In this document: positions 8,225 to 63,720 of the stretch, piece after piece
Position numbering within the stretch: the stretch's first letter is position 1
Layout: each line of letters starts with the position of its first letter
Assembly: GCF_001425165.1 (NCBI RefSeq)
Contig: NZ_LMDU01000011.1
Coordinates: 620,058-684,057, forward strand
Length of the DNA stretch: 64,000 nt
From: Pelomonas sp. Root405
GTDB lineage: Bacteria; Pseudomonadota; Gammaproteobacteria; Burkholderiales; Burkholderiaceae_C
Direction: 5' to 3'
Program-made: the position numbers and the translations under genes
Notes under the pieces: model-generated
Told to the model about the DNA's origin: nothing
Seen by the model: only the letters and a program-made list of their open reading frames with translations
Databases searched by the model: none

Positions 8225-8412
8225 GTCCATCTCCCCCGCTATGTGGCGCGGAGTTTAGGGACAGCCCAGCGTGGCGCTGGACCCGCCGTTTCATCCTCAA
8301 CCGGTGGCTCGGCGTCCTAGGGGGAACCGCCTCGCATCGATTGACCCCCTTGCCGCACGGGCGTAGAACGCCCTGAGCTCGGAAGTTCGCCGGGCAGTCA
8401 AGGAGAGGTTCC

Positions 8413-9327: not shown

Positions 9328-9351
9328 GCGCTGCCCGGTCGCAGCGCGGCG

Positions 9352-10203
9352 TCAATGCCGCCGTGCGCCACGCGCGCTGATCGAGCCCATGCCCGACACC
9401 GAGCGCTGCACCGCGGGGTTGCCGTAGTAATCGACCGAGCCGATGCCGGAGATGTGGGCCGCCAGGTCGTCGGTGACCCACAGGGCCACGTTGCCGATGC
9501 CGCTGACGTTGACGCGGGCCCGCTGGGCCTGCAGGCGCTCGGCCGAGACCTTGCCCTTGCCGGAGATCTGCAGCGCAAGGTCATCCACGCGCCCCCCCAG
9601 CCGGCCGTCGCCTGCGCCCGAGATCGCAAAGGTGATCTGGCGCGCGTCCAGCTGGTCCAGCCGCGCCACGCCTGCGCCGCTGATGCTGAGCAGCAGCTGG
9701 TCGCAGCGCAGCGGCCCGGGCGCGTGCACGTCGCTCGCGCCGGTCAGCGAAAGCTGGCGCAGCTCGCGCATTTCCACCTGCACGAACAGCTTGCTGCTGT
9801 GCCAGAACTTCCAGCCACCGGCCGGGCGGATGACGAGCTGACGGTCGACCAGTTCGACTTCGACGCTCTTGAGCACCTCCTCGTCGCCGGCGATGAAGGC
9901 TTGATCCCGGTCGCCCTGCACGAGAACAACGCGCGCCGCGCCGGCCAGCTCCAGGCGGTCGAACGGGCCGGGCGCATAGACCCTGCCCTCGCCGGCCGGC
10001 GGCAGAGGCGGCGCGGGGCGGACCACCGGCGCAGGGTGAGGCAGCGGCAGCGGTCGCGGTTGCAAATGGGGCCGGGGTGGTGAGGCCGGTTGCGCCGGCT
10101 GGGCCGACGGCGCGGCCGGCGCAGCGGCTGCGGGCGGCGCGGGCTGGGCGCCGGCCAGGCCCGTCGCCAGCAGCAGCACCGGCAAAAGGCGCATCAGCGT
10201 CAT
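9352..10203 (-). CDS. DUF2807 (GIN-type auto-adhesin-like) exported protein
   Basis: The 283-residue product starts with a signal peptide (MRLLPVLLLATGLAGAQ, preceded by MTL) and a linker of about 50 residues made almost only of Pro, Ala and Gln/Arg. Then comes a DUF2807 beta-helix with regular repeats such as LSISGAGVARLDQL, ISGAGDGRLGG, ISGKGKVSAERL and VSGIGNVALWV. Proteins of this kind are predicted to be envelope-located with unknown function. The ATG overlaps the stop of the upstream response-regulator gene (ATGA), making it the third gene of a kinase-regulator-target operon. An upstream start is rejected because it would run through the regulator gene. Confidence 0.85.
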   Translation of the reverse strand: MTLMRLLPVLLLATGLAGAQPAPPAAAAPAAPSAQPAQPASPPRPHLQPRPLPLPHPAPVVRPAPPLPPAGEGRVYAPGPFDRLELAGAARVVLVQGDRDQAFIAGDEEVLKSVEVELVDRQLVIRPAGGWKFWHSSKLFVQVEMRELRQLSLTGASDVHAPGPLRCDQLLLSISGAGVARLDQLDARQITFAISGAGDGRLGGRVDDLALQISGKGKVSAERLQAQRARVNVSGIGNVALWVTDDLAAHISGIGSVDYYGNPAVQRSVSGMGSISARGARRH

Positions 10204-10943
10204 AGCGACTGCTCCCTCAGCATCTTGGACACCTCGCGGTTGGCCGTGATGCGCGTGCCGTCGCGCAGCTGCACGACCAGCTGCGAGTTCTCGTCGGGCG
10301 TCATGCTGTCGACGAAGTCCAGGTTGACGATGCAGCCCCGCTGCACGCGCAGGAAGCGCGCGGGGTCCAGCCGGGACTCGAAGTCCGCAATCGGCAGGCG
10401 CACCAGGAAGCTGCGGCCCTTGGCCGTGATAGCGGTGTACTTGTTGTCCGAGCGCAGGCACTCGATGTCGCTGATCTGCAGCGGAAAGATCTTGCCCTGG
10501 TCACGCACCAGCAGCCGCGTCAGCGGTGCGTCATGCGGGGCGCCCAGCGCCTGCGCGACGTCCGCGGTGCTGGGTGCGGCATCGCGCAGCGCATGTTGCA
10601 CGGCCTCGTCGAAGCGCTCGCGCGAGAAGGGCTTGAGCAGGTAGTCCACCGCGTGCAGCTCGAAGGCGGTCAGCGCATGCTGGTCATACGCCGTCGTGAA
10701 GATGATGCGCGGCTGGTGCGCATCGCCCTGCAGCGCCTGCACCACCTGCAGGCCGGTCAGGCCGGGCATCTGGATGTCGGTCAGCACCAGGCCGGGCTTG
10801 AGCGCGCGGATCTTGGCCAGCGCGTCGTCGCCGTCCTCACAGACGGCAACCAGCTGCAGGCCCGGCGTGGCCTTGACCCAATCGGCCAGCGCGTCGGCAG
10901 CCAGGTGTTCGTCTTCGGCGATGAGGACAGTGGTCATGTTCAT
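10200..10943 (-). CDS. LytTR-family response regulator
   Basis: The 247-residue protein is a transcription regulator with an N-terminal receiver domain (residues 4-120; phosphoacceptor Asp56 in VLTDIQMPG, conserved Thr in IIFTTAYD, Lys in YLLKPFSRE) and a C-terminal LytTR DNA-binding domain (SDIECLRSDNKYTAI, FLRVQRGCIVNLDFV). It is the AlgR/LytR type that pairs with LytS-like kinases. Its ATG overlaps the kinase stop (ATGA), so the pair is co-translated. The gene downstream (DUF2807) also overlaps by 4 bases, suggesting that all three belong to one envelope-related response. Confidence 0.93.
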   Translation of the reverse strand: MNMTTVLIAEDEHLAADALADWVKATPGLQLVAVCEDGDDALAKIRALKPGLVLTDIQMPGLTGLQVVQALQGDAHQPRIIFTTAYDQHALTAFELHAVDYLLKPFSRERFDEAVQHALRDAAPSTADVAQALGAPHDAPLTRLLVRDQGKIFPLQISDIECLRSDNKYTAITAKGRSFLVRLPIADFESRLDPARFLRVQRGCIVNLDFVDSMTPDENSQLVVQLRDGTRITANREVSKMLREQSL

Positions 10944-12031
10944 GTCTGCGGGATAAACAAATCGACGCGAAAGCCCGCGCCGGGGGCGGTGTGGATGCGC
11001 AGGCGCGCCTGGCCGTTGTAGTCCAGCGCAAAGCGCTTTTTGAGCGCCGCCAGGCCCACGCCGCGGCGCTGGCCGGGCTGGGGTTCCAGCGCCTCGGGCT
11101 CGCAGCCCGGGCCATCGTCGGCCACGGCCAGGTCCAGCCCCTGGTTGAGCGCATTGCGGCGCGCGCTGATCGTCACGCGGCCCCCGCCCTTGCGCGGCGC
11201 CACGGCGTGCAGGATGGAGTTCTCGACCAGCGGCTGGAGTGTGAGCGGCGGCAACTCGTCGGCCAGCACGCGCTCCTCCAGGTCCCAGTCCACGCGCAGC
11301 CGCGTGCCCAGGCGCAGGGCTTCCAGCGCAAGGTAGTCGCGCAGGAAGTCGATCTCGTCGGACAGCATCACGCGGTCCTCGGCGCCGCGCTTGGTGTCCA
11401 GCACATAACGCAGCATGGACGAGAACTTCAGCAGCGCGGCCTCGGCGGCGGCCGGGTCCTTTCGCGTCAGTGCGATCAGCGAGTTCAGCGTGTTGAACAG
11501 GAAATGCGGGTTGAGCTTGCCGCTGATGGCCGACAGCTCGGCCTTGGCCAGTGCGCTCTCCGCCTGGGCCGTGGCCACCGCCGCCGCGCGCGCCGCGCGC
11601 GCCTGCAGCACGGCCGTGAAGGCGGTGGCAATGGCGGCGTACACCACCACCCCCCACACCGAGCGCCACAGCAGCCCGGCCAGCAGCACGGCGCCGGCAT
11701 GGTCGGTGCCGAACAGCACGGCGTTGACGGCGAACTCCCCCACCTGCCACAGCGCCGAGAACGACAGCGCCGCGATCCAGTGCGCCAGCGCGGCGGCGGC
11801 CGGGCCGGCATCACTGCCATGCAGCAGGCGAGCCACCGGCCACACGGCGATACCCAGCAACATCGGCGCCCACAGCATGGTCGTGGCCTGGTAGACGGCC
11901 AGCCAGAACGGATCCAGCCCGCGATCGAACTCGCTGCCGGCCAGCACGAACAGGCACCAGGCCAGCGCGCAGCCACCGGCGTACGCCAACCAGAGGCGGC
12001 GGTTGCTGTGGCGGTGGCTGGGCGGGTTCAT
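10940..12031 (-). CDS. LytS/AlgZ-type sensor histidine kinase
   Basis: The 363-residue kinase has an N-terminal membrane region with four or five hydrophobic segments (about residues 12-140), no extracellular domain of note, and a His_kinase domain of the LytS type with phosphoacceptor His176 in NPHFLFNTLNSL. The ATP-binding part is visible as LQPLVENSILHA and DDGPG with GVGLAALKKRF. The AAVATAQAESALAKAEL stretch is a short coiled coil linking membrane and catalytic parts. It should phosphorylate the LytTR regulator encoded immediately downstream. The input signal is not evident. Confidence 0.92.
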   Translation of the reverse strand: MNPPSHRHSNRRLWLAYAGGCALAWCLFVLAGSEFDRGLDPFWLAVYQATTMLWAPMLLGIAVWPVARLLHGSDAGPAAAALAHWIAALSFSALWQVGEFAVNAVLFGTDHAGAVLLAGLLWRSVWGVVVYAAIATAFTAVLQARAARAAAVATAQAESALAKAELSAISGKLNPHFLFNTLNSLIALTRKDPAAAEAALLKFSSMLRYVLDTKRGAEDRVMLSDEIDFLRDYLALEALRLGTRLRVDWDLEERVLADELPPLTLQPLVENSILHAVAPRKGGGRVTISARRNALNQGLDLAVADDGPGCEPEALEPQPGQRRGVGLAALKKRFALDYNGQARLRIHTAPGAGFRVDLFIPQT

Positions 12032-50239: not shown

Positions 50240-51616
50240 ATGCTTGCCCGCTCACTGACTGGACACAGCGACCCCATCGCCGCCATCGCCACCGCGCCGG
50301 GGCGCGGCGCCGTCGGCATCGTGCGCGTGTCGTCACCGCAGGACCTGGCACCGATCATCGAAGCCGTCTGCGGCCGCACGCTCAAACCGCGTGAGGCCAC
50401 CTACCTGCCGTTCCGTGACGCGAACGGCGGATCAATCGACCAGGGCCTGGCGCTGCATTTCCCGGCGCCGCACTCCTATACCGGCGAACATGTGCTGGAG
50501 CTCCAGGCCCACGGGGGCGCCGTCGTCATGCAGTTGCTGCTGGCGCGGGTCATCCAGGCCGGCCCCGGCGTCAGGCTTGCAGAACCCGGCGAGTTCACCC
50601 AGCGCGCCTTCCTGAACGGCAAGCTCGACCTGGCCCAGGCCGAGGCGGTGGCCGACCTCATCGACGCCAGCACCGAAGCTGCGGCGCGCAGCGCCAGCCG
50701 CGCACTCGGTGGCGCGCTGTCGCACGAGGTCGGCGTGCTGCGCGATCAGCTGATCCAGCTGCGCATGCTGGTCGAGGCCACGTTGGACTTTCCCGAAGAA
50801 GAAATCGACTTCCTCGAGAAGGCCGACGCCTTTGGCCGGCTAGACCGCCTGACGGCGCAACTGGGCGCCGTGCAGGCCCGCACGCGCCAGGGCGCGCTGC
50901 TGCGCGACGGGCTCAAGGTCGTGCTCGCCGGCCAGCCCAATGTGGGAAAAAGCTCGCTGCTGAACGCGCTCGCAGGCGCAGAACTCGCCATCGTCACCCC
51001 CATCCCCGGCACGACGCGCGACAAGGTCAGCCAGACCATCCAGATCGAAGGCGTGCCCCTGCACATCACCGACACCGCCGGCCTGCGCGACGCGACGGCC
51101 GATGAGGTCGAGCGCATCGGCGTATCACGCAGCTGGGATGCCATCGCCGATGCGGACGTGGTGCTCTTCCTGCATGACCTGGGCCGAGTCGGCCAGGCGG
51201 ACTACGAGGCCGAGGACGAGCGCATCCGCGCGCGGCTGGCCGGCGTGGACGCAAGCCGCATCGTGCAGGTCTTCAACAAGGCCGACCTCGCCACAGCACC
51301 CGAAGGCGAAATCGCGCTGAGCTTGAAGACTGGCGACGGCCTGGAATCACTGCGCCAGCGCCTGCTGCTAACGGCCGGCTGGCAGGCTGTGCCGGAAGGC
51401 CTCTTCATCGCCCGCGAGCGGCATGTACAGGCATTGGCCCGCACGGCTGAGCATTTGATGCTTGCACGAGAGGTCGCCGCTCAGCGCGACGCGGCGCTGG
51501 ATCTGCTGGCCGAGGAGCTGCGCCTGGCGCACGACGCGCTGGGCGAGATCACCGGCGCGTTCTCGGCTGACGAACTGCTGGGCGTCATCTTCAGCAGCTT
51601 TTGCATCGGCAAATGA
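50240..51616 (+). CDS. mnmE: tRNA-modifying GTPase MnmE (TrmE)
   Basis: The 458-residue protein works with MnmG to modify wobble uridines in tRNA. The N-terminal folate-binding domain ([35 protein letters not shown]), the G domain ([38 protein letters not shown]) and the C-terminal catalytic Cys motif in FCIGK are all intact. The 3' end codes for FCIGK exactly where the attL core of the mobile element lies, so insertion did not change the protein. This site is a known target of island integrases (SGI1). Confidence 0.98.
51599..51609. other. Putative attL core at the mnmE 3' end
   Basis: TTTTGCATCGG in the mnmE stop region has a near copy, TTCTGCATCGG, at 62329-62339 (10 of 11 bases identical). 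It is the expected core of an mnmE-specific integration. Inferred from position and match, not proven. Confidence 0.5.
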
Positions 51617-51681
51617 CACCGCTTCCTAGACGATCCATCGGAATCTAAAGATCGCTCGTAAACCGTTGATCTGCAAAGGAA

Positions 51682-53013
51682 TTGTCTTCCTACAATGTCC
51701 ACCTGGACCCAACGGCAGCCGATAGCTACTGGGTCCACGGTTGGGTCCATGGAGCGATCTGGACCCAGAAATCAAAATTCCATGGGCCCAGCGAGGCAGC
51801 GATAGCCCTGACAGACACCGCCCTGAAGGCACTCAAACCCAAGGACGCGGCTTACACCGTGGCGGATGAGCGGGGGCTGTATGTGGAGGTGCTGCCCACC
51901 GGCAGCATCGTCTGGCGCTACCGCTACCGCATTGGGGGCAAGCGCGAAAAGCTGACTCTGGGAAAGTACCCGGCGCTGACACTCAAGAACGCGCGCATCA
52001 AGCGCGACGAGGCGGCGCAAGCGGCGGCAATGGACCAGTCGCCGGCCAAACAGAAGCAGCTCGCCAAGGTGGCTGCCGCCGACGCCACCACCGTGGCGGA
52101 GTTTGGTGAGCGCTTCTTCAGTGAGATCGTGGCTAAGGACCGGCGCGACCTGACCATTCCGCGCCGCTACTTCGACAAGGCCATCGTGCCGGCGATCGGC
52201 AGCAAACCGGTGCGTGACGTGACGACCGAGGACGTGCGGGCCATCATCTGGAAGAAGAAGGACGAGGGCTTCGACGCTGCAGCCGGCAACATCCGGGGCG
52301 TGCTGAAGCGGCTGTTCGACTATGCGATGACCGCCGGGCTGGCGACGGTGAACCCGGTGCTGGCACTGCCCATGCGCCATGTCCACAAGGCCAAGTCACG
52401 CGACCGCGCGCTGGCGCCGGACGAGATCCGCAAGTTCCTGAAGGCTGCGTTCGAGTCCAACATCCGGCGCCAGTTCAAGATTGGGCTGCACCTCATCCTC
52501 CTGACGATGGTGCGCAAGTCCGAGCTGCTGCTGGCGCGCTGGTCCGACGTGGATTTCGAGCAGGCCGAGTGGCACATTCCCGCCGAGCACTCCAAGACGG
52601 GCAAGCCGCACATCGTCTTTCTCTCGCGGCAGGCGGTGGCGATGTTCAAGGAACTCCAGGCCCTGGCTGGCGGCAGCGAGCTGGTACTGCCCGGGCGGGG
52701 CAGCCTGACCAAGCCGTTTGCCCAGAATGCGATCAACAACGCTTTGAAGATGGCGCTGCAGGGGCAGGACATACCTGCGTTCACCATCCACGACCTGCGC
52801 CGCACCGCTTCCACGCTGCTGCATGAAAACGGCTGGCCTTCCGACGTGGTGGAAAAGGCTTTGAACCACACCATCGGCGGGGTGCGTGGCGTCTACAACC
52901 GTGCAGAGTACGAATCGCAGCGGCGCGAAATGCTGCAGTTCTGGTCCGACTACACCGAGCAGTTGATGATGAGCGGGCAGCTAATCCTGGGGAGGTTCAA
53001 GCAGGTCGCTTGA
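51682..53013 (+). CDS. Tyrosine integrase (P4-like) of the mnmE element
   Basis: The protein (443 residues from a TTG at 51682, about 403 from codon 51802) catalyses integration and excision. The DUF4102-type N-terminal arm-binding domain is seen in LTDTALKALKP and RYRYRIGGKREKLTLGKYP, the core-binding SAM-like part follows, and the catalytic residues are Arg in LLTMVRKSELL, Lys, HDLRRTAST, His and Tyr in GVRGVYNRAEY. The family start (usually M-A-L-T-D) is here ATA at 51802; the upstream frame overlaps the arm-type repeats and a TTGATC/TACAAT promoter-like pair, so it may be untranslated. Direction away from mnmE is normal for such elements. Confidence 0.92.
   Translation: MSSYNVHLDPTAADSYWVHGWVHGAIWTQKSKFHGPSEAAIALTDTALKALKPKDAAYTVADERGLYVEVLPTGSIVWRYRYRIGGKREKLTLGKYPALTLKNARIKRDEAAQAAAMDQSPAKQKQLAKVAAADATTVAEFGERFFSEIVAKDRRDLTIPRRYFDKAIVPAIGSKPVRDVTTEDVRAIIWKKKDEGFDAAAGNIRGVLKRLFDYAMTAGLATVNPVLALPMRHVHKAKSRDRALAPDEIRKFLKAAFESNIRRQFKIGLHLILLTMVRKSELLLARWSDVDFEQAEWHIPAEHSKTGKPHIVFLSRQAVAMFKELQALAGGSELVLPGRGSLTKPFAQNAINNALKMALQGQDIPAFTIHDLRRTASTLLHENGWPSDVVEKALNHTIGGVRGVYNRAEYESQRREMLQFWSDYTEQLMMSGQLILGRFKQVA
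51704..51767. repeat. TGGGTCCA repeats, left end
   Basis: Four copies of TGGGTCCA or its complement, at 51704, 51730, 51742 and 51760, two in each direction, lie just before the family-conserved start of the integrase. The same octamer occurs twice at the right end (62249, 62261). Likely arm-type binding sites. Confidence 0.6.
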
Positions 53014-53042
53014 AGCAAGTTACCGTACTCCAAGCAATGCCG

Positions 53043-53522
53043 TTAAGGCGGTTGATGTCCCGCAAACCAAATGGCACTGGTTATCGTGATGAACGCTAAT
53101 GTCGTAGGCACCAGGACGTAGAACAACACCTTGGCCGCTGATTTCAGACCATTGCGGATCCGATCGTTGACGGTGAACGGCACAAACGCTTGGGCTTGCT
53201 TCTGAGCAATAACCCACGACTGAGCGAGAGTAATGACGAAGAAAGCACACGCGATGGCAGTAAGTAGTCCGCCTGCAAATGCCGTCATGCCGGCCTTGCT
53301 TAAGAGCGTGACCCCCGCCGCGTACGATGCTGCCGCAATGCCATAGTTCTTGAGGTTGTCAGCAGCATCCTTCAGCGTCACCGGCTTGCCGACATCATGC
53401 AAACGCGGCCAAAAGCCGCCTGTGCGCAAGTGGATTGGTCCGTCAAGTCGAGGTGGCGGTGGCGGTGGCGATATTGGTTCTTCTACGTCAGCGCCAGTAG
53501 TCACGGGTAATGTGTCACTCAT
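53043..53522 (-). CDS. Small membrane protein at the end of the restriction operon
   Basis: The 159-residue protein begins with a soluble N-terminus that contains a run of seven prolines (SPPPPPPR), a basic stretch, a short amphipathic segment (about 50-60) and two or three hydrophobic segments (61-76, 80-102, 131-153). No family is recognised. It starts 46 bases after the helicase-nuclease gene on the same strand, so it should be the fourth gene of the methylase operon. The nature of its role (effector, anchor or passenger) cannot be read from sequence. Confidence 0.6.
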   Translation of the reverse strand: MSDTLPVTTGADVEEPISPPPPPPRLDGPIHLRTGGFWPRLHDVGKPVTLKDAADNLKNYGIAAASYAAGVTLLSKAGMTAFAGGLLTAIACAFFVITLAQSWVIAQKQAQAFVPFTVNDRIRNGLKSAAKVLFYVLVPTTLAFITITSAIWFAGHQPP

Positions 53523-53568
53523 AGGTTCACCGTAAATCTTGGCGGCTGAGCGCAAAGTGGCGACTCGT

Positions 53569-56500
53569 TCATGCAGCAACCGCCATTGCAACCTGATCCA
53601 GCAGCTTGCTCAAATTCGCCGGCTGCATCACCAGGTGATAGCTCCACCGCCCAAACCGCCCATCGTTGTTCACTGCCCGGCACCACCGCTGCGCCGCTGC
53701 TGCCTTGATCTCGGCATCACCCGGCTGGCCCTTGATCTCGACAATCAGCCGTTCGCCGCTCGCCAGCTCCACGATGAAGTCCGGCAGGTAGCGCTTGCGC
53801 AGCCCGTCCTTGCGGTAGGGCACGACAAACCCGAGGTGGTCGTTCTTCACCCATGAACGCACCGCCGGATGCGCGTCCAGCGCTGTGGCTGCCGCCTGCT
53901 CCCAGGTCTTGGTGTCGGCCACGATGGCGTTCAGGTGGCACTTGTGTGCGGCCCAGGGTTGGCGGCCGGTGGCGAACTCGACAAAACGGGTGGAGCGCTC
54001 GCCCGCCGGGCCTGGCGCGATCAGGGGCCGTTCCATCGCTGCGCCGCTGGCATCCACAGGGTGCAAGGCATCAAAGAGCAGCGCCACAGCCTTCTGGAAG
54101 TACGGATTCAGCGCCACGTCTTGCGCCGCGCGATTGCCCATGCAGTCCAGCTTCGTGGCCAGGAATCGCTGCGTGTAGCCCAGCATTTGCGGAAAGACTC
54201 GGTGCATCGGGATGGTGTCGCCGCGCACCTGCACCCATTGCTGCGACAGCACCTTGGCCAGCGTGAACGCCACCTGCTGCACGCGCACCCCGGCGCGCCA
54301 GGCATCCAGCGTCATCACGTCCACGGCGCCGGGGCCATACGCTGCCAGGGCGCCGTCGGCACCTGCCAGGCCTTTCATCAGCACTGTGTCGGGCACCGTC
54401 ATCGGGTCCAGCTTTAGCTTCGGCACTGTGGCCCAGTCGATGGCCAGCCGAGTGATGCCAGGGTCGGTGTAACCCTCCACGACCGGGAAGCGAATCTCGT
54501 AACCCGACTTGGCCGGCACCGCATAGATCTGGTTGGCGGGTGGCGACGGGGGCTGCTGCGCGCCGCCTTCCACCTTGAACGGGATCAGCTCGAAGGGCAC
54601 GCCAAAGACCTTGGCGGTTTCCTCGCGGAAGAAGCCGGTGGCCTCGTCCACCGCGTAGGACGTGCGGCGCAGCGCCCGGCCCACCACCTGCTCACACAGC
54701 AGTTGCGAACCGAACGGCCGCAGACCCACCACATGCGTCACCGTGGTGGCGTCCCAGCCTTCAGACAGCATGGCGACGCTGATGATGCAGCGCACATCGC
54801 GCCCCGGGGGCACGCTCGCGTCCAGCGTCACCAAGCCGTTGTCGTCGTCCAGCGCGCGGTGGTTGTGGCGGTTCACCAGGTCGGTGTACTCCTCGGGCAC
54901 CTGGTTGCCGTGCCAGGCTGTCTTGCCGATGGTTTCCAGCACGAAGCGCAGCCGCCGCGCCTCGTCGTTCTTGCCGCCGCCCTCGGCGATGTCCTCGGCC
55001 ACCTTGCTGTCCACGCGCACCGTCCACTCACGGCCCGGTGCGTTGCGAAAGTACTCGGGCGCGGCCCCATACTCGCTCTTGCCATGGGCCAGCCAGTCAT
55101 GCATCTCCTTGGCCAGCGCCGTGTCGCGGCACACGATGATGAAGACGGGCGGCACGTCGCTCTTGCGGTGGCCGGCGGCGAACTGCATCTGCCAGTCGGC
55201 CGCTGTCTTGCGCCACTCGTCGGCCATCTGCACGATGGGCTGGGTGGCGTAGCGCATCAGCAGCTCCGGCGTCAGCCCTTTGCCAAGTCCGTCCTTCTCG
55301 GCAATCTCTTGCACCCAGCGCCAGACATTGAAGTAAGCCGGCGTCGCGGTGCCGCCGCCGTCTTGCGTGGGTAGTTGCGGGATCTTCACCAACCCGGCCT
55401 CGATGGCCTCCAACAGGCTGAAGTCCGACACCACCCAGGGGAAGGGCTTGCCCACCTCGTTGCCGCTGCCCTGGATGAAGAAGGGCGTGGCCGACAGGTC
55501 CACGCACAGCCGGATGCCATTGCCCCGGTTGGCGCGCCCGCCCAAGGCCTTGTTGATGCGGTCAAGGCCCTCGATCCACACGGTGGCCTCACGGGCATCG
55601 ACCTCGGCTGTTTCCTCGTCGATGGCGTAGGTGTCATCCGCATCCAGCTTGCCGCGCCGGTAGGCATGGTGCGCCTCGTCGTTCATCACCAGGATGGCCG
55701 AACTGCGCCCCTTGCGGTTGCCCAGCACGCGGCGCAGAAAGGCGGCATCGCTCTCGTAGTAGCGGGTCTCCTTGACCTCGAAGCCAGTTAGCACCTCCTT
55801 CTTGTCGCGCAGCTCGCGCACGATGTCGAAGGCGCCGGTCAAGGCCTGGTGCCGGATGTCGGCCTCGCTCAGGTCGTCGCGCCCGCCCAGCTTGATGGTG
55901 CGCAGCTTCTCCACCGGTGTGCCTCGGCGCACCACGCGCGCTGATGAGCCGCTCACGTCGCCCAGCTCGCGCCGCTCCAGGTTGTGCCAGTTGGTGATGA
56001 ACACCTCGCCGCGCCGCAGCTCGGGCATGCGGTGCAGGGGCACGAGCTGGCGGGTGCGGTACAGGCTCAGTTCGTCTTGGTTCGGGTCCAGCTCGCGCAG
56101 CCGGTCGCGGATGGTGACGTTAGGGCAGACGATCAGCACGGTGTCCGAATACGCGGCGGCCTGCGCGTCGTTGACCTTGTTCAGGATGGACCACGCAGCC
56201 AGCATGCCCATCACCGTGGTCTTGCCGCTGCCGGTGGCCATCTTCAGCGCATAGCGCACGAACGCCTTGTAGCCGGCGGCCTTGGCGTCCTCTCCCGGCT
56301 CGTCCGAGGGCACCACCACGCCCTGCTTCAGGTCATCCGGCCCTTCCACCAGGAACAGCACGGACTCGACTGCTTCGAGCTGGGCAAAGAACAGCCTCTG
56401 CGAGCGCTCGGGGTCGTGCCATAGCGCCAGCAGCTCGCGCGTGACCTTAGTGGCGCCTGCGTACTCACGCGCCCGCCATTCCTTGATCCGCAGGCGGATC

Positions 56501-56736
56501 AGGTTGGCTAGGTCCAGCAGGTATTCCTGGCCCTTGGACGCGTCATCGAACAACGCCTTTTGCACCTTGCCCTTGGCACCTCGGGCGGCGCGCTCAGGCA
56601 CGCGGAAGAAGTAGGAGGCTTGCCGGCGGCCCGGTCGCTTCTCGGGCTGCTTCGCTGCCTCGATGTGCCAGTGGAAAGCCGGCTCGACGTAGGGCAGGTT
56701 GATGATCGGCGCTTCAACTGCGTTGATCTGGCTCAT
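53569..56736 (-). CDS. Type III-like restriction helicase-nuclease (Res/BPTD_3080 type)
   Basis: The 1055-residue protein has an SF2 helicase motor: Walker A in KMATGSGKTTVMG (about residue 170), motif II NDEAHHAYR, motif III CVDLSATPFF, and motif VI in EQVVGRALRRT. At the C-terminus a PD-D/ExK nuclease is visible: LPDFIVEL with Asp986 and the Glu1000-Ile-Lys1002 pair. This is the composition of type III Res proteins. The start overlaps the stop of the unknown upstream gene by 4 bases (ATGA). It should cut DNA lacking the Mod mark. Confidence 0.92.
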   Translation of the reverse strand: MSQINAVEAPIINLPYVEPAFHWHIEAAKQPEKRPGRRQASYFFRVPERAARGAKGKVQKALFDDASKGQEYLLDLANLIRLRIKEWRAREYAGATKVTRELLALWHDPERSQRLFFAQLEAVESVLFLVEGPDDLKQGVVVPSDEPGEDAKAAGYKAFVRYALKMATGSGKTTVMGMLAAWSILNKVNDAQAAAYSDTVLIVCPNVTIRDRLRELDPNQDELSLYRTRQLVPLHRMPELRRGEVFITNWHNLERRELGDVSGSSARVVRRGTPVEKLRTIKLGGRDDLSEADIRHQALTGAFDIVRELRDKKEVLTGFEVKETRYYESDAAFLRRVLGNRKGRSSAILVMNDEAHHAYRRGKLDADDTYAIDEETAEVDAREATVWIEGLDRINKALGGRANRGNGIRLCVDLSATPFFIQGSGNEVGKPFPWVVSDFSLLEAIEAGLVKIPQLPTQDGGGTATPAYFNVWRWVQEIAEKDGLGKGLTPELLMRYATQPIVQMADEWRKTAADWQMQFAAGHRKSDVPPVFIIVCRDTALAKEMHDWLAHGKSEYGAAPEYFRNAPGREWTVRVDSKVAEDIAEGGGKNDEARRLRFVLETIGKTAWHGNQVPEEYTDLVNRHNHRALDDDNGLVTLDASVPPGRDVRCIISVAMLSEGWDATTVTHVVGLRPFGSQLLCEQVVGRALRRTSYAVDEATGFFREETAKVFGVPFELIPFKVEGGAQQPPSPPANQIYAVPAKSGYEIRFPVVEGYTDPGITRLAIDWATVPKLKLDPMTVPDTVLMKGLAGADGALAAYGPGAVDVMTLDAWRAGVRVQQVAFTLAKVLSQQWVQVRGDTIPMHRVFPQMLGYTQRFLATKLDCMGNRAAQDVALNPYFQKAVALLFDALHPVDASGAAMERPLIAPGPAGERSTRFVEFATGRQPWAAHKCHLNAIVADTKTWEQAAATALDAHPAVRSWVKNDHLGFVVPYRKDGLRKRYLPDFIVELASGERLIVEIKGQPGDAEIKAAAAQRWCRAVNNDGRFGRWSYHLVMQPANLSKLLDQVAMAVAA

Positions 56737-57551
56737 TCAATCGCTCCGATCAACCAAGACACCCCGAAATAGTCAACCGCAAGCTCTTGAACGGCCTCCA
56801 CAGCCTGCGCTAGGTCAGGGACTTCTCGAACTTTCGGAAGATGGTCGGGCATCAGTTGCGATTCGCTTGCTTCCGACTTCCTCCGCAGCTTTTGCCGATG
56901 TGGCCACCACTCATTCAGATCCTCAAGAAGGTCGTTGTAAATCTCAACTACGGCATCCCGATCAAATTTCTCAATGCGGCCGGTATCCAGCCTCCATTCG
57001 GAAGGAGCGCCGCCGGTTGCGCGCACGGGTTGGTCTGAGAACCTGTGGACTTGCGACGCGTCAAGGTTGTAAACGATGGAGTGGGAGCGTGCGTCTGTAA
57101 TGGCACCTGCGTTCAATACGTCGATCCAAACGGAGTTGTCCACGACAGAGCCTGTCGCAAAGTGTTGGTCCACTTCGGCGCGCGTCGTGAACGCGGGGGC
57201 GCAGTAGAAGAAGTTCTGCTTCCCCCCTTGAACCGCTTTGTGAATGAGGTTGTACTGCTCGATATCCAGCTCGAACTTGAAGTACGGTCCACCAACCGCG
57301 TCATAGAACTTGGCGTTCGACCCTGTGCGTGAATCAACATGCCGGGCCACTTTGTGCTGGAGGAATAGGGACGACACCGCTCCTCCCGCCACGAGAGTCT
57401 GGATCTCAACGTCATAGCCCAAACGCTTTTCCTGTTGCTGGGAGGGCAGGTACGGACAGGCGGCCAACACCGCTTTGTGAGCGGCGCAGTACTCAGCGTT
57501 AAACGCGAACTCGAAGACGCGCTCTGCGAAACCGGGCTTCTTTACCGTCAC
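56733..57551 (-). CDS. Uncharacterised accessory protein between Mod and Res
   Basis: The 272-residue protein has no firm family. A pattern compatible with a PD-D/ExK-like nuclease core is seen: Glu20, Asp47 in GYDVEIQ and Gln65-His-Lys67 in LFLQHKVAR, followed by FYDAVGGPYFKFELDIEQYN and NFFYCAPAF. The C-terminal third is helical and charged (EIYNDLLEDLNEWWPHRQKLRRK). The gene overlaps the methylase stop and the helicase-nuclease start by 4 bases each, so it is made in step with both. This place and tight coupling argue for a working component of the restriction system, not a passenger. The nuclease reading is a hypothesis. Confidence 0.7.
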   Translation of the reverse strand: MTVKKPGFAERVFEFAFNAEYCAAHKAVLAACPYLPSQQQEKRLGYDVEIQTLVAGGAVSSLFLQHKVARHVDSRTGSNAKFYDAVGGPYFKFELDIEQYNLIHKAVQGGKQNFFYCAPAFTTRAEVDQHFATGSVVDNSVWIDVLNAGAITDARSHSIVYNLDASQVHRFSDQPVRATGGAPSEWRLDTGRIEKFDRDAVVEIYNDLLEDLNEWWPHRQKLRRKSEASESQLMPDHLPKVREVPDLAQAVEAVQELAVDYFGVSWLIGAIE

Positions 57552-60355
57552 GTCCCCACCTCCAAGACACGCACCAGCTCATTCCCCCGCTCGTCGATGA
57601 CCTTCACCGCCACGCGCCGCCTCGGCCCGACAGGGAAGGGCTCGCTGACGGTGCCGGCCAGGTGTTCCCACACTGAGGGGTCAAACTCGGCTTTCAGGCT
57701 TTTCTGCAGGTTGTCCCAAGCGGCGGTCTTGGGAAAGAACACCTGCGTGGCGTAGAAGCACATGCCGTCGTAGTCGGTGTCCAGCATCCAGCAAGGCAGG
57801 TTCTGGCCCTCAATAGCCTCCTGCTCCATCGTGGCAGGGTTGAAGATGTCCAGCCCGCGCAGTTCCACCTCGTAGAGTGCCGCGCCGTCGTCGTTCTTCA
57901 GCTTTGTCTTGCGCGGCACTGCGTCTGGCAAACCGGTGACGCTAAAGATCTGGCTTGCGCGGCTGGTCTTGAGCAGGTCGCTCATCGCCACGTCGGGCGT
58001 CACCGTCACATAGGTGCAGGGAATGCGCAGCTTGTTGCGGTCTTCAAGTAGCTCGCGGGCCTTGGCCTGGATGGCGAAGCCGAAGAAGTACAGGTGCGCA
58101 AACTTCAGGTAATGCGCCTCGCGCGCCGCCTCGTAGACCAGCTCCGAGCCGATGGCTCCATCCTCGGGGCCGAAGACGATGCCGATGCGCTGGCCTTCGG
58201 CGTCCACCCCTTCGGCGTGCAGCACATCGCTGTCAGCGCGGCGGATGCCCTCCAGCGCCAGCTCGCGGTTGCCCGGCAGGCGCAGCGTGCGGCTTTGGCG
58301 CAGCACCTGAGTCATGCGCTCGATGTGGGTGGCGGGGTCGTTGTAGCGGGCTGCGGTCTCGGCCACACCGCGCGGCAGCGCACCATTGGCGGCATCCGAC
58401 TCGGCCAGCGCGGCGTCCAGGGACTGCGCGGCCAGGGCCTCGGCGGGCTCACTCGCACCCACCGGCTCATCCAGCGACTGCGCCGGGGCAATGGTGGCCT
58501 CCACCACAAAGGGGCCGGCCACCCGGGTGACGGTGTTGTTGATCTCGGGCCGGTCCACCAGCACCTCGGTGGCCGGCGGCTCGTCGTTGGCAATGGACTT
58601 CAGCGTAATGTGCGGCACCAGCCCGCCCACCTCCTCGCCCTTGCGGTTCTGCCGCCGCTTGTAGACAAACCCGCCCTGCGGGCCGGCCTGCGGGTTCTTC
58701 AACTCGTAGTACGGAAAGGTTGCGGTCAGCAGCCGTTGCCGGGCCAGCGCCAGCGGCACGCGGCTGGTGTCGCAAGTGATCCAGCGGCGGCCCCATTGTT
58801 CGGCGACATAGGCGGTAGTGCCGCTGCCACAGGTGGGGTCAAGAACTAGATCACCCGGGTCGGTGCACATGAGCATGCAGCGCTGGATCGTCTTTGTGGT
58901 CGTTTGAACGACGTAGTAGCGAGTCTCGGCATATCCGCCGGTCAGCGTGTCATCCCACAAGTTGCTGAGTGGGAGAAAAGGGAAGTCAGTTACGAAGCGC
59001 CGATAAGAAAGCGTCGCACCGTAGGCCTCTAAGCGTTTTGCCTTTGCAAGTCTGTCAAGCCCCTTCTTGTCAGTCTTGAAGGTTCCCTTCCCTGGCGTGT
59101 AAGACTTGCCTTCGTATTCGTATTGACGGACATCACCATCCTGTGCGGGACGCTGGCTTGTCAGGTTGTCACGCCTATAGACAGTGCTGCCTTCTGGCAA
59201 AAGGGACCAGTCTCTACGTTCGTCACCTGACATGCGCCGAAACTCACCTTGGCCGGTCTTGAGATAGTCATAGTTCACCCAGCCCTCGCCGTCCCGACGT
59301 AGGTACAAGTCGCGGTACTTGGTACGCGCCGAGTCCTTACCGTACCAAAGAAGATAGTCACAAACCGAGGCCAAGCCCGACCCAGAAGCACTAGTCGTCT
59401 TCGAGAAGACGATGACGCCCATTGAATTTGCACTGCCAAAGACCTCATCCATCACTTCGCGGACGTGATGCAGGTTTTCATCCGAGATCTGTACGAACAC
59501 GCTCCCGCTCTCGTGCAGCAACTCCTTTGCCACCATCAACCGGTCACGCAGATAGGTCAGATAGGAATGCAGGCCCAGCTCCCAGGTGTCCCGGTAGGCT
59601 TTGACCATCTCAGGCTCGCGAGTCATATCCTCGTCGGCGTTGGGCTTCACGTCGCGCTTGCGCACGAAGGGCTGGAAGTTCGAGCCGAACTTCACGCCAT
59701 AGGGCGGGTCCATGTAGATCATCTGCACCTGGCCACCCAGGCCCTCGAACTCCAGCAATGAGTTCATCACCTGCAGGCTGTCGCCCAGCACCATGCGGTT
59801 CTGCCAGGGGCCTCTATGTTCGTAGGCGTCGAGCTTGTCGGTCACGTCCAGGCCCCCGTCGCCGAACAGGTCCAGCGTGGTGCCCTTGGCCTTGCGGTGG
59901 CTGATGCCGTCCAGGATCGCCTTGGTGGAATGGCGCTCATGCACGAACAGCGGCACGGTGGGCACGCTGAGCTGGTGGCGCTCGGCCTTGCCGGCCCAGT
60001 TGAGGAAGGGCTGGCTCAAGTGCTGCAGCAGGTCGGCTGCCGCCTTAAGCGACTGCACTTGCACGCCACCGCCAGCCCAAGCCTCGGGCTGCGCGAATAC
60101 GGCCGCCTCGCCTTCGGTCGCGCAGCGCTGCACCAAGCCGATGAGCCATTCGGCCAGTTCGCGGTCGCGGCTTTCGTCCCAGCTCAGGGCGGGGTCCAGG
60201 CTGCTGTCGTAGCGGTAGGTCTTGGCAGGCTTGCGGTTGCTGAACTGGTCCTGCACGCCGGCATCGGGGCGCTGAACGGCCTGCTGGTTGTGGCGGTAGG
60301 TGCCGGTCTGGCTGGCAGGCGTTGCTGCCGCTGCGGCGGTGCGTTTTTTGGCCAA
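57548..60355 (-). CDS. Site-specific DNA methyltransferase (type III Mod-like)
   Basis: The 935-residue protein is a beta-class N6-adenine methylase: motif IV DPPYG (about residue 215, YMDPPYGVKFG) precedes motif I DPTCGSGTT (about residue 507). The long segment between holds the target-recognition region, and the last 350 residues (after VDRPEINNTVTRVAGPF) are an extension beyond usual Mod proteins of 600-700 residues, possibly for contact with the other subunits. It is the first gene of the operon; its promoter lies in the 120 bases shared with the divergent interrupted gene. Confidence 0.92.
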   Translation of the reverse strand: MAKKRTAAAAATPASQTGTYRHNQQAVQRPDAGVQDQFSNRKPAKTYRYDSSLDPALSWDESRDRELAEWLIGLVQRCATEGEAAVFAQPEAWAGGGVQVQSLKAAADLLQHLSQPFLNWAGKAERHQLSVPTVPLFVHERHSTKAILDGISHRKAKGTTLDLFGDGGLDVTDKLDAYEHRGPWQNRMVLGDSLQVMNSLLEFEGLGGQVQMIYMDPPYGVKFGSNFQPFVRKRDVKPNADEDMTREPEMVKAYRDTWELGLHSYLTYLRDRLMVAKELLHESGSVFVQISDENLHHVREVMDEVFGSANSMGVIVFSKTTSASGSGLASVCDYLLWYGKDSARTKYRDLYLRRDGEGWVNYDYLKTGQGEFRRMSGDERRDWSLLPEGSTVYRRDNLTSQRPAQDGDVRQYEYEGKSYTPGKGTFKTDKKGLDRLAKAKRLEAYGATLSYRRFVTDFPFLPLSNLWDDTLTGGYAETRYYVVQTTTKTIQRCMLMCTDPGDLVLDPTCGSGTTAYVAEQWGRRWITCDTSRVPLALARQRLLTATFPYYELKNPQAGPQGGFVYKRRQNRKGEEVGGLVPHITLKSIANDEPPATEVLVDRPEINNTVTRVAGPFVVEATIAPAQSLDEPVGASEPAEALAAQSLDAALAESDAANGALPRGVAETAARYNDPATHIERMTQVLRQSRTLRLPGNRELALEGIRRADSDVLHAEGVDAEGQRIGIVFGPEDGAIGSELVYEAAREAHYLKFAHLYFFGFAIQAKARELLEDRNKLRIPCTYVTVTPDVAMSDLLKTSRASQIFSVTGLPDAVPRKTKLKNDDGAALYEVELRGLDIFNPATMEQEAIEGQNLPCWMLDTDYDGMCFYATQVFFPKTAAWDNLQKSLKAEFDPSVWEHLAGTVSEPFPVGPRRRVAVKVIDERGNELVRVLEVGT

Positions 60356-60475
60356 TGGTTCCCCCTGATCTTGTCGCTCTGCCGGTGGCCCGGCGGCGTG
60401 GCTGCGCTTGGTGCGCGCTGGCCGTGTTTGTACATTAGCTGCCCATAACGTCCATCAGTGACGGGGAGGAGCCGG

Positions 60476-61702
60476 ATGAGTCGACATTATTCGAGCAAAG
60501 ACTTCTTTCGCCAGATGCCGAAACCCCTGCTGGGGCGGTACTTCGCGGGACGAAGGTTGATGACGGGCCTGGACTTCGGCGCGATGCCCGAGGGCAAGCC
60601 AGAGGCGTTGTTCGAGGCCTGGACAGGCTTGACGGATGAGCAGCGCAGCAGCGCCGAGGCGGACTTTCGCGAGATCTGGCTGATGAGCAACGCGAAGGGC
60701 TTTGGCGCCATCGTCGATGAGGCTCGCTGGCAGCCCGCGGATGAGCCGGACGCTTTGCAGGCCTTCATCGACGACCTGGCCGCGTTGGGCGACCACCCGG
60801 CACGGGCACTGGTGACGTTTCTTGATCACCCGCAGTGCTGGAAGGGCGCGCAGCGCTTTCACTACGCCGACCAGCTCACCCACTGGCGCAAGCGCTAGAA
60901 CTTGCCGCGCGTGGTGGCGGCAACGGACAAGGCCAGCGTGGCGCGGCTGGCGGACCTCATCAAGAACTACTTCCGGGCGACCGAAGGCCGGGGCCGGAAC
61001 TGCGTGGTGGAGGCCTACCGACGCGGGGAGCGGGACTACTTCTTCGCCTTTCCCGAGGACCACGCGCAGCGCAGCGTGGAGTGGGTGGATGGCGAGTTCA
61101 ACCCGCGACCACACAACCCGGCGTTCGAAATCGTGTTCGTCTATGCGCAAGGCGAGGGAACGCTGGACTTGAACTTTCGGGGCGGGCAGAAGTTCATCGC
61201 CGCGCTTCAAGGCATGTTTGCGCAGGCCATCCTGAAGCTGGACGAGCTGCCGCCAGACCCGAAGGACGAGCGGGTGTATGACCTGGCGCCGCTGACGCAG
61301 GCCGGTTTCGAGTTCACGCATGCTCTGGGTAGCAGCATCGGCACGGTGGTGGTGAAGAAGCTGCGGCTGTCGTCGCGCGTGCGAGCGGGCGACAAGATCA
61401 CGGTGGAGGCGGACGGGCGCAGCAACCGGCAGGCGGTGCATGAGCTGCTGGCGCAGGTGGGCCAATCTGTGCCGCTGCACCTCTACAACGTGACGCAGGT
61501 GGACCTGGCAGCGACGGTGTTTGTGGCCGAAGGGAAGCCGCCCAAGACGGTGAACATCCGCATCACGCACCCGAACTCGTGTTCACTCAAATATGACGAG
61601 ATCGACCTGAGCCTGCGGCAGATGTTGGAGGACTCGGGCATCGAACCGCACGCGCCGGCACCGGTGGAGCAGGCAAGCCCGGCCCAGGCTGCAGCGGCCT
61701 GA
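60476..61702 (+). pseudogene. Hypothetical gene interrupted by an amber codon
   Basis: Two frames are in register: 60476-60895 ends at TAG (60896-60898) after LTHWRKR, and the next codon continues without shift into NLPRVVAATDKASVARLADL and on to 61702. The joint protein would be about 408 residues. The second half contains GRGRNCVVEAYRRGERDYFFAFPED and FNPRPHNPAFEIVFVY. No family function is known to me. A single AAG- or CAG-to-TAG change explains the break; amber read-through or a sequencing error are alternatives. The ribosome-binding site GGAGGA fits the ATG at 60476. It is divergent from the methylase gene. Confidence 0.75.
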
Positions 61703-61703
61703 C

Positions 61704-62202
61704 ATGGCGCCAGCCACGCCAGACGCGGCCCTGGCCGAGCTGCTGGCGCGCCTGACGCACCTGCGCCGGGATCTGCTGTGGGGTAACGACGCCCCCCTGT
61801 TTCCGGCAACCCGCATCGAGCTGGGGCGAAAAGCTGCACTTCGAAGCCACCGGCATCGACCGCAAGGGCTGGGCGACGGCTGCGCCCATACGGGCCATCT
61901 TCAAACAGGCCTTCGAGGCGGCCGGACTGCCTTACTTCAACCCGCACAGCCTGCGCAGCACGCTGGTGCAGCTGGGCGAGACAATTTGCCAGTCGCCCGA
62001 GGACTTCAAGGCATGGAGCCAGAACCTCGGGCACGAGGGCGTGCTGACGACCTTTTACAGCTATGGCACGGTGTCGGGCCGCCGCCAGGGGGAGATCATC
62101 AAGACGCTTGCCAAGCCGAAAGTCAGCAAGCCTGGCTCGACCGAGGAGCTGGCCGAGGCGCTGGTGCGAGCGATGCGCAGGGAAGGCGTTAGTCTGGGAT
62201 AG
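61704..62202 (+). pseudogene. Tyrosine recombinase C-terminal fragment, frameshifted
   Basis: The first part (to about 61827) reads LLWGNDAPLFPATRIELG; after an extra base it continues in the next frame with GIDRKGWATAAPIRAIFKQAFEAAG, HSLRSTLVQLGE, AWSQNLGHEGVLTTFYSYG and an end typical of phage-like integrases. The His and Arg boxes and the catalytic Tyr are visible, but the N-terminal half is missing. It is a decayed recombinase, different from the intact integrase at 51682. It lies 1 base after the stop of the interrupted gene, so they may have been one operon. Confidence 0.82.
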
Positions 62203-62248
62203 ATTCGATGAAGCAACGCACCCCTGCGGCTGAGACACATGGCATGGC

Positions 62249-62268
62249 TGGGTCCATATTTGGGTCCA
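62249..62268. repeat. TGGGTCCA repeats, right end
   Basis: Two direct copies of TGGGTCCA at 62249 and 62261 match the four at the integrase end. Supports the extent of the element. Confidence 0.55.
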
Positions 62269-62328
62269 TGCTCACTAAAGTTCAGTCGAGAAGTGAGCAT
62301 TCATGCGGGCTGCAGGAGGTTTTCTATG

Positions 62329-62339
62329 TTCTGCATCGG
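62329..62339. other. Putative attR core
   Basis: TTCTGCATCGG resembles the TTTTGCATCGG at the mnmE end and lies 60 bases past the right-end repeats. It is the likely right junction of the element. Confidence 0.45.
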
Positions 62340-62802
62340 TTGTTTCCGGCGGCTGCCGAAGGCGGACGACGTCGAAATGTGGCGAAGTGAGGGCAGCTGC
62401 TTTTGCTCGGCCCGCCAAGCCAGTGCGACGCGGCGAGACACAGCGCTGACTGTTGGGCTGTCGTACTAAAAAAATTGGACACGTCGTCGCATTTAACGGA
62501 AATCCGCACCTCGTACGAAAAAAATGAGGTTGCCGGGCAGCAGGCATGGCCGAACCAACTCGCGCTTGAGCTCTGGGCTGTGCTCGCGCTGACGGCGTTT
62601 GGAGGGAGTGTCTTGATCAGCCATGGTTCGCGTTAGCGATGCCTGATGCACACCAACTCTGGCGCGCAGGATCAGCCGATCTTGCTCACCACGCCACCGC
62701 CATGCCAGAGGGCCGTGAGGCCCCGCTCATCCCGAAGGCGACTTCGTGTTGAAGCTGTCGGACGGCGCGGATGGATGCCTGGGTGCAGAAGCCCGCGCTG
62801 GA
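62340..62802. other. Non-coding stretch right of the element
   Basis: No gene, RNA or hairpin that I can support. Short open frames here lack a ribosome-binding site and recognisable sequence. The stretch is lower in GC around 62460-62530 (A-runs before TTGGACACG), so it may include remnants of earlier insertion. Confidence 0.4.
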
Positions 62803-63720
62803 TCAAGCGTCGTTGAACAGCGGCTCAACCAGATACAGCCCCGTCTCGACGGTCATGCCGAACAGGCTGCCGGACAGCGGACGGGCCATCAGATCGGCCG
62901 TGCTCAGGCCTTCGCGGGCGGTGCTGACCATCAGCTGGTCACCGGCCGGGCCGCCGAAGGCGGGACAGGTGGTGTTACTGACGGGGACGGAGTAGCGGCC
63001 CAGCTGCCGACCGTCGGGCGCGTAGCGGGCGACCGTGCCCGCGCCCCATTCGGCGTTCCACAGGCAGCCCTTGGCGTCGATGCAGGAGCCGTCGGGATAG
63101 CCGTCTCGGGCCTCCTTCTTCACGAACACGCGCGGCTCACTGACGCGGGCGCTGGCCGAGTCGTAGTCGCAGACCATGATGCGGCGGCTGGGCGTGTCGC
63201 AGTAGTACATGCGCTGGCCGTTGGGGCTGAAGCAGATGCTGTTGGCGATGGCCACGCCGTCGAGCGGCAGGCGGCGCAGCCCCCTGGCCAGCGAGTACTG
63301 GTAGAAGCCGCCGATGGACTGACGGGGCTCGGCCTCGTCCAGCGTGCCGAAGACGAAGGCGCCGCTGCGGTCGCAGCGACCATCGTTGGCGCGTGTGGTG
63401 GGCAGGTGGGCTTCGAGCGACGTGATGGTCTCGGGTTCGCCGGCGATGCTGCCGGTGGCCTGCAGGTCGGGCAGCGTCAGGCGCGCCAGCCGCTTGGCCA
63501 TGGCCAGAACAATAGCGCCGGAGCGTCCGTGCACGAAGCAGCCGACTCGCTCGGGCAGGCGGACCTGCAGCGTGGCATTGGCGCCAGGCGTCCAGGCGTA
63601 GATGCAGGCACCCTCGATATCGGTCCACCACCAGCGGCCGCTGGGGCCATGCCATTGCAGGCCTTCGCCGAGGCTGTTGGCCTGGGCGAGCGCGAGAGTG
63701 AAGGGATGTTCAGTGGGCAT
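62803..63720 (-). CDS. SMP-30/gluconolactonase-family protein
   Basis: The 305-residue protein is a six-bladed propeller of the SMP-30/regucalcin family, enzymes that hydrolyse sugar lactones with a divalent metal. Motifs: NSLGEGLQWHGPSGRWWWTDIEG with the metal Glu, RANDGRCDRSGAFVFGTLDE, IANSICFSPNGQRMYYCDT and YPDGSCIDAKGCLWNAEWGAG. The ATG at 63720 overlaps the end of the thioesterase gene by 11 bases, so the two are one operon. The substrate may be a pentono- or hexonolactone. Confidence 0.92.
   Translation of the reverse strand: MPTEHPFTLALAQANSLGEGLQWHGPSGRWWWTDIEGACIYAWTPGANATLQVRLPERVGCFVHGRSGAIVLAMAKRLARLTLPDLQATGSIAGEPETITSLEAHLPTTRANDGRCDRSGAFVFGTLDEAEPRQSIGGFYQYSLARGLRRLPLDGVAIANSICFSPNGQRMYYCDTPSRRIMVCDYDSASARVSEPRVFVKKEARDGYPDGSCIDAKGCLWNAEWGAGTVARYAPDGRQLGRYSVPVSNTTCPAFGGPAGDQLMVSTAREGLSTADLMARPLSGSLFGMTVETGLYLVEPLFNDA

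Follow-up and report, generated by a model that had tools for sequence, protein, structure and literature searches.

Introduction

What does a gene embedded between the methylase and nuclease genes of a restriction-modification (RM) operon do, and does the restriction enzyme need it? The question is raised by a 64,000-nucleotide (nt) stretch of Pelomonas sp. Root405 (contig NZ_LMDU01000011.1, positions 620,058 to 684,057; hereafter the window), in which a gene for a 272-amino-acid (aa) protein lies between mod and res of a type III-like RM operon. A first-pass annotation of the window took this protein for a third required subunit of the enzyme and the small membrane-protein gene behind res for a possible effector. 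Here we report that the mod/res junction is a slot: its edges lie at the stop and start codons of the core genes, its cargo differs among close relatives, and the cargo family found in the window carries nuclease-type invariant residues. We consider it likely that the operon is a type III-like RM system whose mod/res junction serves as a cargo slot, holding here an embedded accessory gene for a predicted defense nuclease.

Gene content of the operon

The genes lie on the minus strand in the order mod, 272-aa gene (the middle gene), res, and small membrane-protein gene, at the positions and in the order that the first-pass annotation had given. The features of the core and of the slot are as follows.

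57548-60355, minus strand: mod, 935 aa from a TTG start, type III-like N6-adenine/N4-cytosine DNA methyltransferase
59699-59710, minus strand: DPPY motif of Mod, residues 216-219, from a motif scan
58820-58840, minus strand: S-adenosylmethionine (AdoMet) motif DPTCGSG of Mod, residues 506-512, preceded by DPPY
57548-57551, minus strand: GTGA, overlap of the mod stop and the middle-gene start, exactly 4 nt; upstream edge of the slot
56733-57551, minus strand: middle (slot) gene, 272 aa from a GTG start, predicted PD-(D/E)XK nuclease
56733-56736, minus strand: ATGA, overlap of the middle-gene stop and the res start, exactly 4 nt; downstream edge of the slot
53569-56736, minus strand: res, 1055 aa from an ATG start, BPTD_3080-family restriction endonuclease
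Motifs of Res, minus strand: Walker A at residues 168-173, DEAH at 353-356, and PDF-x12-EIK, C-terminal, at 985-1002 (53731-53784)

The type III-like character of the operon was borne out by both core proteins. Mod matched Pfam N6_N4_Mtase (2.6e-27) and the PADLOC model MTase_III PDLC03632 (2.3e-160). A type III Mod is defined by a DPPY motif ahead of the AdoMet motif (beta order), and Mod of the window has this order. Res matched NCBIfam NF046055 (BPTD_3080) with 1118.8 bits against a cut-off of 800, over residues 8-1048, and is the only match of that model in the source genome. By its motifs alone, Res is a superfamily 2 helicase with a C-terminal PD-(D/E)XK nuclease; it matched Pfam ResIII at 2e-06. 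The classical type III Res model (PRK15483) gave only 12.9 bits against a cut-off of 564, which places Res outside the classical family. Because Res is of the BPTD_3080 and not the PRK15483 family, we call the operon type III-like.

The two 4-nt overlaps of the middle gene, also reported before, are exact. They are not due to chance, because the middle frame has homologues along its whole length (63% identity and lower) and two relatives, loci L031 and L033, share the same 4-nt overlaps at both junctions. The C-terminal part of Mod, about 350 residues, had been pointed out as an extension. It is real, but it is common to relatives and not specific to this locus: the Mod proteins of L033, L049, and L059 align to that of the window over 921-937 residues with 73-75% identity.

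The mod/res junction in related loci

Fifty-seven loci were examined, of which 55 were found through Res and two (L031 and L033) through the 272-aa family. Searches with NF046055 or with the Res sequence of the window covered plasmids as well as genomes from the same family, order, class, and phylum. High-scoring matches were fetched first; in one search, 90 of 299 genomes matched, many of them weakly, and 20 plus 6 stretches were fetched. Further sampling took 20 of 29 other matching genomes and 5 of 24 plasmid records. Six loci without one of the core genes (L100, L116, L118, L120, L121, and L122) were left out of the counts, and the set contains two pairs of near-copies (L125/L126 and L057/L058). 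Both core genes lie on one strand in 51 of the 57 loci, 35 in mod-res and 16 in res-mod order. In these 51, which were chosen for holding both genes, mod and res are at most 2.1 kb apart.

The 272-aa family (BLASTP, 1e-8) was found in none of the fetched stretches of the 49 Res-found loci with both core genes. It is absent from all six loci whose Res is 63-84% identical to that of the window (L049, L059, L090, L091, L092, and L093). The first-pass annotation had proposed to ask how often the protein lies between the same mod and res types, and had named absence from most homologous loci as evidence against a required subunit; such absence is what the survey found. A third core subunit was therefore rejected as the principal explanation.

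A frame of at least 80 aa separates the core genes in 32 of the 51 loci. There is none in the other 19, and 18 of those 19 gaps are shorter than 150 nt. Among the 33 gaps of at least 150 nt, a gene matching Pfam or PADLOC occupies 24 and the 272-aa family two; four contain a gene that lacks a good match, and three were left unassigned (L094, L102, and L109). The four poorly matched slots are L127 and L057, with no match, L040, with a PADLOC match of 2.1e-5 only, and L058, which was not scanned and is 93% identical to L057. By our own reading, 21 of the 24 matched genes are of defense or toxin type; the others encode KilA-N, ORF6N, and Bro-N proteins. The slot contents are listed below.

L049 and L103: HEC-01-type AAA_21 ATPase, paired with DUF4276/HEC-01B
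L050 and L055: HEC-01-type AAA_21 ATPase (that of L055 is related to those of L050 and L103)
L053, L095, L096, L097, and L115: large AAA_15/AAA_21 proteins
L042 and L091: GmrSD_N protein (that of L091 also matches HEC-05)
L093 and L098: AAA_14/DUF4143 protein (that of L098 also matches PDC-S01)
L059: NOV_C protein
L052: PDC-M56 pair
L101: PD-T4-4 pair
L105: YhcG PDDEXK protein (PDC-S02)
L054, L099, L119, and L123: toxin-type proteins (PemK, ParE, zeta, and PIN_3, respectively)
L043, L046, and L104: KilA-N, ORF6N, and Bro-N proteins, respectively
L090 and L092, close Res relatives: empty

Three of the large AAA_15/AAA_21 proteins were scanned with PADLOC and matched general ATPase models only (AriA, GajA, and Old, for example). 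Both ends of the cargo lie within 10 nt of a core-gene stop or start in 17 of the 33 slots, and the longest open stretch is on the operon strand in 28 of 33; these counts are for mod/res junctions only. The PemK-type gene of L054 fills its gap and leaves no room for an antitoxin. The ParE (L099), PIN (L123), and zeta (L119) slots each contain a second, smaller frame (66-81 aa) that could encode an antitoxin, so that whole toxin-antitoxin pairs may be cargo. The idea that toxin-type cargo lacks antitoxins was dropped, since three of the four such slots hold this second frame. The 77-aa frame before the ParE gene and the 81-aa frame before the PIN gene are antitoxin-like.

In L125 (Shinella plasmid pfSHIWSC3, 1-9108; L126 is similar), phospholipase D family and helicase genes stand directly before overlapping mod and res genes, which suggests a larger defense cluster around an empty slot.

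Exchange of slot contents among close relatives

Around Res proteins 63-84% identical to that of the window, the slots hold the 272-aa family, a HEC-01 pair, NOV_C, GmrSD, AAA_14, or nothing. The DNA of the window, L031, L033, L049, and L059 was compared. The longest matching piece of mod (about 1.3-1.4 of 2.8 kb) is 77-85% identical among these five loci and that of res is 78-88% identical, whereas slots with cargo of different types have no DNA match. Slots holding the same family match weakly: 70% over 438 nt for the window and L031, 77% over 56 nt for L031 and L033, and no match for the window and L033. The middle gene thus diverges faster than the core. In L031, L033, L049, and L059, the tail of mod and the start of res are near-identical as far as the codons delimiting the slot. 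Outside the operon, the only stretch shared by any of the five loci is one of 694 nt downstream of res in L031 and L033 (73% identity).

The Res tree was a quick IQ-TREE run with Shimodaira-Hasegawa-like approximate likelihood ratio test (SH-aLRT) support. It additionally leaves out L119 and L123; its deep forks join long branches, and the sister pairs named here use shallow forks. L031, whose slot holds the 272-aa gene, is sister to L049, whose slot holds the HEC-01 pair (SH-aLRT 99); both belong to a clade of five (support 100) that includes the NOV_C locus. On the res-mod branch, L040 and L042 are sisters at 100 and carry a 211-aa gene and GmrSD, respectively; L043 and L044, also sisters at 100, carry KilA-N and nothing. 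The cargo proteins of L093 and L098 are 71% identical and sit on far-apart Res branches. The swap of slot contents is recent and precise. The middle gene shows two marks of an embedded defense gene, a position between the core genes of another system and exchangeability; such a gene would also be expected to protect against phages by itself.

Two further observations were made in these loci. In L049, a 190-aa RNA_ligase-domain protein is encoded after res (10495-11067). In L059, res is split by about 1.3 kb of DNA that carries an opposite-strand frame (6855-11546).

Conserved residues of the 272-aa protein

Sequence searches for the family listed 62 and then 79 proteins, the window's own included. 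An alignment of 48 sequences, 44 close and four distant, was used to locate the conserved residues, of which the following are central.

57522-57524, minus strand: E10, invariant in 48 of 48 sequences
57411-57413, minus strand: D47, invariant in 48 of 48
57351-57359, minus strand: Q65-x-K67, with K67 in 48 of 48 and Q65 in 47 of 48, the remaining one having E

Nine positions are invariant in all 48 sequences: E10, P33, P36, E41, D47, K67, Q99, P119, and H157. H66 is invariant among the 44 close members and lost in the distant ones, and the loop between D47 and QxK varies within the family. An E, D, and (D,E,Q)xK set is the catalytic pattern of PD-(D/E)XK nucleases, and the conserved E, D, and (Q/E)xK of the family correspond to it. 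Judged from these residues, the 272-aa protein is probably a nuclease.

Library searches gave the protein no name. Nothing in Pfam, NCBIfam, PADLOC, or PHROGs matched it. A profile search of the PDB gave three chance matches only (E 0.48-4), and a Pfam scan of the 44 close members gave only scattered single-member matches of 0.019 or worse. The protein has no recognizable modified-base reader domain, and the viral contigs searched held no relative of the family.

Other locations of the 272-aa family

Nine family loci in named genomes were inspected. Two are in a mod/res slot, and seven have no mod or res in the fetched stretch, although some of these stretches are short on one side. In L032, the family member follows hsdR of a type I system. 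In L034 (616-3891), the genes next after the family member encode an S_4TM effector and a SMODS/AGS_C synthase, which form an operon resembling a cyclic oligonucleotide-based antiphage signaling system (CBASS). The neighbors in the remaining five are unassigned, transposase, SNase-domain, or other genes. One plasmid copy, which matches residues 1-175 only (L131), follows an AAA_15 ATPase of OLD type. A distant relative that keeps D and QFK (L132, 6777-8592) lies near a ThsB_TIR gene with one frame between. A survey of Burkholderiales found the family in two of 399 genomes, one of them the window's own.

On the family tree, which is unrooted and in which the neighborhood is known for 10 of the 53 rows (43 without), the three slot copies do not form one group. 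The L033 copy groups with plasmid and hsdR copies, apart from those of the window and L031, with starred branches between. This placement requires at least two moves of the gene into or out of the slot.

Discussion

Given these data, it is quite likely that the middle gene is an accessory defense gene, dispensable for modification or restriction. As their families would predict, Mod would mark the host DNA, and Mod and Res together would cut unmarked DNA in type III fashion. Type III enzymes methylate a single strand, and their ATP-driven cleavage requires two sites in inverted orientation. The middle protein would be a separate nuclease effector riding in the slot, and it could form a second line of anti-phage defense beside restriction. 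It may cut phage DNA missed by restriction, or it may damage nucleic acid once an infection gets through. Direct attack on phage DNA is slightly more likely than last-resort action, because the family adjoins several unrelated systems and other slot cargo, namely ATPase pairs and toxin genes accompanied by a possible partner frame, looks self-contained. Translational coupling through the overlaps would tie the dose of the middle protein to those of Mod and Res.

Several observations weigh against this account. The 272-aa family was seen in the slot in three loci, two of which came from searches with the family. Loci with like cargo cluster on the Res tree, which needs 22 changes where shuffles average 29.4 (as few in 0 of 200), so cargo is inherited for a time and later replaced. 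The flanks beyond mod and res also vary among relatives. As to the nuclease assignment, hhalign comparison of the family with Mrr_cat and NOV_C gave p values of 0.056 and 0.038, respectively, in an underpowered comparison. The controls gave 0.29 and 0.46 for reversed profiles and 0.16 and 0.32 for the C-terminal half of the protein, and Mrr_cat and NOV_C, two accepted nuclease families, gave 0.18 against each other. The rows of these profiles were filtered by motif, which retained 15 of 30 Mrr loci and 7 of 8 NOV_C loci; L059 was added. In the alignment with Mrr_cat, the family's D and QxK columns do fall on those of the profile, but this is weak evidence, as the rows of that profile were chosen by motif; the NOV_C alignment covers D only. 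Finally, the double 4-nt overlap could also reflect physical contact of the middle protein with Mod or Res as partners.

Such a partnership would make the middle protein a true subunit of a three-component restriction enzyme, binding Mod or Res and needed for, or altering, cleavage in a sub-lineage. The three loci with identical gene order and overlaps would fit, but we find this very doubtful: the family is missing from every one of the 49 Res-found loci, Res proteins 83-84% identical to that of the window stand beside other cargo (L049 and L059, the res gene of L059 being itself interrupted), family members occur elsewhere without mod or res in the fetched stretch, and the slot copies do not form one group on the family tree. 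At the other extreme, frequent recombination in a defense island might simply drop genes between mod and res, with co-transcription being neutral. An integrase gene adjoins the operon, in a stretch that varies among same-genus genomes, and other flanks vary as well. Against this, both cargo edges lie within 10 nt of the core codons in 17 of 33 slots, the longest open stretch is on the operon strand in 28, and 24 hold a library-matched gene, 21 of them of defense or toxin type by our reading; these figures are for mod/res junctions only. We find this explanation, too, very doubtful.

Two further explanations accept a defense role and differ on how the nuclease acts. In a PrrC-like guard, Mod and Res would restrain the nuclease, phage anti-restriction proteins would free it, abortive infection would follow, and the slot would keep the pair linked. 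Type I RM systems offer a good precedent in PrrC (PMC12707154 and PMC3506569), the cargo includes AAA_21 and DUF4276 pairs matching the HEC-01 and, more weakly, AriA models, and the PemK-type toxin of L054 has no room for an antitoxin. The possible antitoxin frames in the other three toxin-type slots imply that such cargo may be self-contained, however, and the 272-aa family stands beside other defense genes without mod or res. Moreover, TgvAB, embedded in a type I locus, protects without the RM genes, though less so for several phages (PMC11411939). A guard is accordingly somewhat unlikely. Alternatively, the protein could be a restriction nuclease of type IV-like, modification-dependent action and complement the core when the DNA of the phage is modified. 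The slots of L091 and L042 do contain GmrSD_N proteins, and one type I system of Vibrio cholerae carries an embedded GmrSD-related pair (PMC11411939). No part of the 272-aa protein has a convincing Pfam match, and the lack of a recognizable reader domain also speaks against this explanation, which we judge unlikely. A bolder view would treat the mod/res junction as a general plug-in port across BPTD_3080 systems of either gene order: the conserved Mod-Res core would sense infection or its own inhibition and fire or release whichever effector occupies the port. This is quite unlikely; if true, lineages would swap effectors (nuclease, ATPase-DUF4276 pair, GmrSD, or toxin) and keep one sensor.

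The preferred reading, an accessory nuclease gene in a cargo slot, has parallels among known systems. The full-length BPTD_3080 model (NF046055), which Res of the window matches well above the cut-off, together with a type III-like Mod, describes the core of the operon, but the title of the model is silent on a cargo slot. No paper on the name BPTD_3080 or its mod/res junction, and no description of the 272-aa family, was found among open-licence PMC papers. The embedded HEC and PDC candidates are similar in that a gene set lies between the core genes of another defense system, and the HEC-01, HEC-05, PDC-S01, PDC-S02, and PDC-M56 models match slot genes of relatives; the 272-aa family differs in matching no PADLOC model. 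These candidates reportedly come from a systematic search for "guilt by embedding" by Payne and colleagues, a 2024 bioRxiv preprint (10.1101/2024.01.29.577857) that later papers cite for it. The Mrr_cat and NOV_C PD-(D/E)XK nucleases share the invariant E, D, and (Q/E)xK, likewise in this order, but no profile match is significant, and the 272-aa protein has H66, invariant in its near family, and an unmatched C-terminal half. PrrC in EcoPrrI and TgvAB in V. cholerae are likewise accessory defense genes embedded in RM operons (PMC12707154, PMC3506569, and PMC11411939). There, the hosts are type I systems, the protein families are others, and activity has been demonstrated, whereas that of the 272-aa protein is predicted. 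TgvAB and DarTG2 both lie in type I RM loci (PMC11411939 and PMC12255303). Embedding of defense genes is thus a known principle, and the nearest statement that we found is that of Makarova et al.

What is new here is the 272-aa family, as cargo of an exchangeable slot within a type III-like RM operon. The related Mod/Res pairs (Res 63-84% identical) form a natural series with six slot contents, the empty one included, which lets one ask whether embedded defense genes are autonomous or triggered by the host RM enzyme. The family, unnamed and probably of nucleases, recurs beside type I RM, CBASS-type genes, and an OLD-like ATPase. Further candidates can be sought by a simple rule, namely to take the genes between mod and a BPTD_3080 res.

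Downstream gene and genomic surroundings

The remaining features near the operon are as follows.

53043-53522, minus strand: tail gene, 159 aa from an ATG start; a 182-aa version from TTG overlaps res
51682-53013, plus strand: tyrosine integrase gene (Phage_integrase 4.5e-25, Arm-DNA-bind_3), between the operon and mnmE
50240-51616: mnmE, with the integrase gene directly after it

The ATG start of the tail gene lies 46 nt after res. Its product is strongly hydrophobic in two places (around residues 78-106 and 129-151) and matches a holin phrog only at 0.057. One foreign homologue was found, the other listed protein being from the window's own contig; none was found in the plasmid collection or in the 57 related loci. 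The proposal that it is a membrane effector of the system was rejected, as the gene is a near-orphan and is not conserved with res. It is probably a lineage-specific passenger.

Upstream of mod (60458-61702) there are two plus-strand frames of 146 and 266 aa without a PADLOC match; the 266-aa frame has only a sub-threshold Pfam HPr match. The operon lies in a variable interval of the window from mnmE to a SMP-30-like gene (51616-62803). No convincing direct repeats marking island ends were found. The distance from mnmE to the next shared gene is 11.2 kb here. Of three other genomes from the genus, two have about 1.9 and 2.2 kb there, and the third has about 9 kb, with no match to the window's stretch beyond 22 nt. 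The interval between mnmE and the SMP-30-like gene is possibly an integration hot spot.

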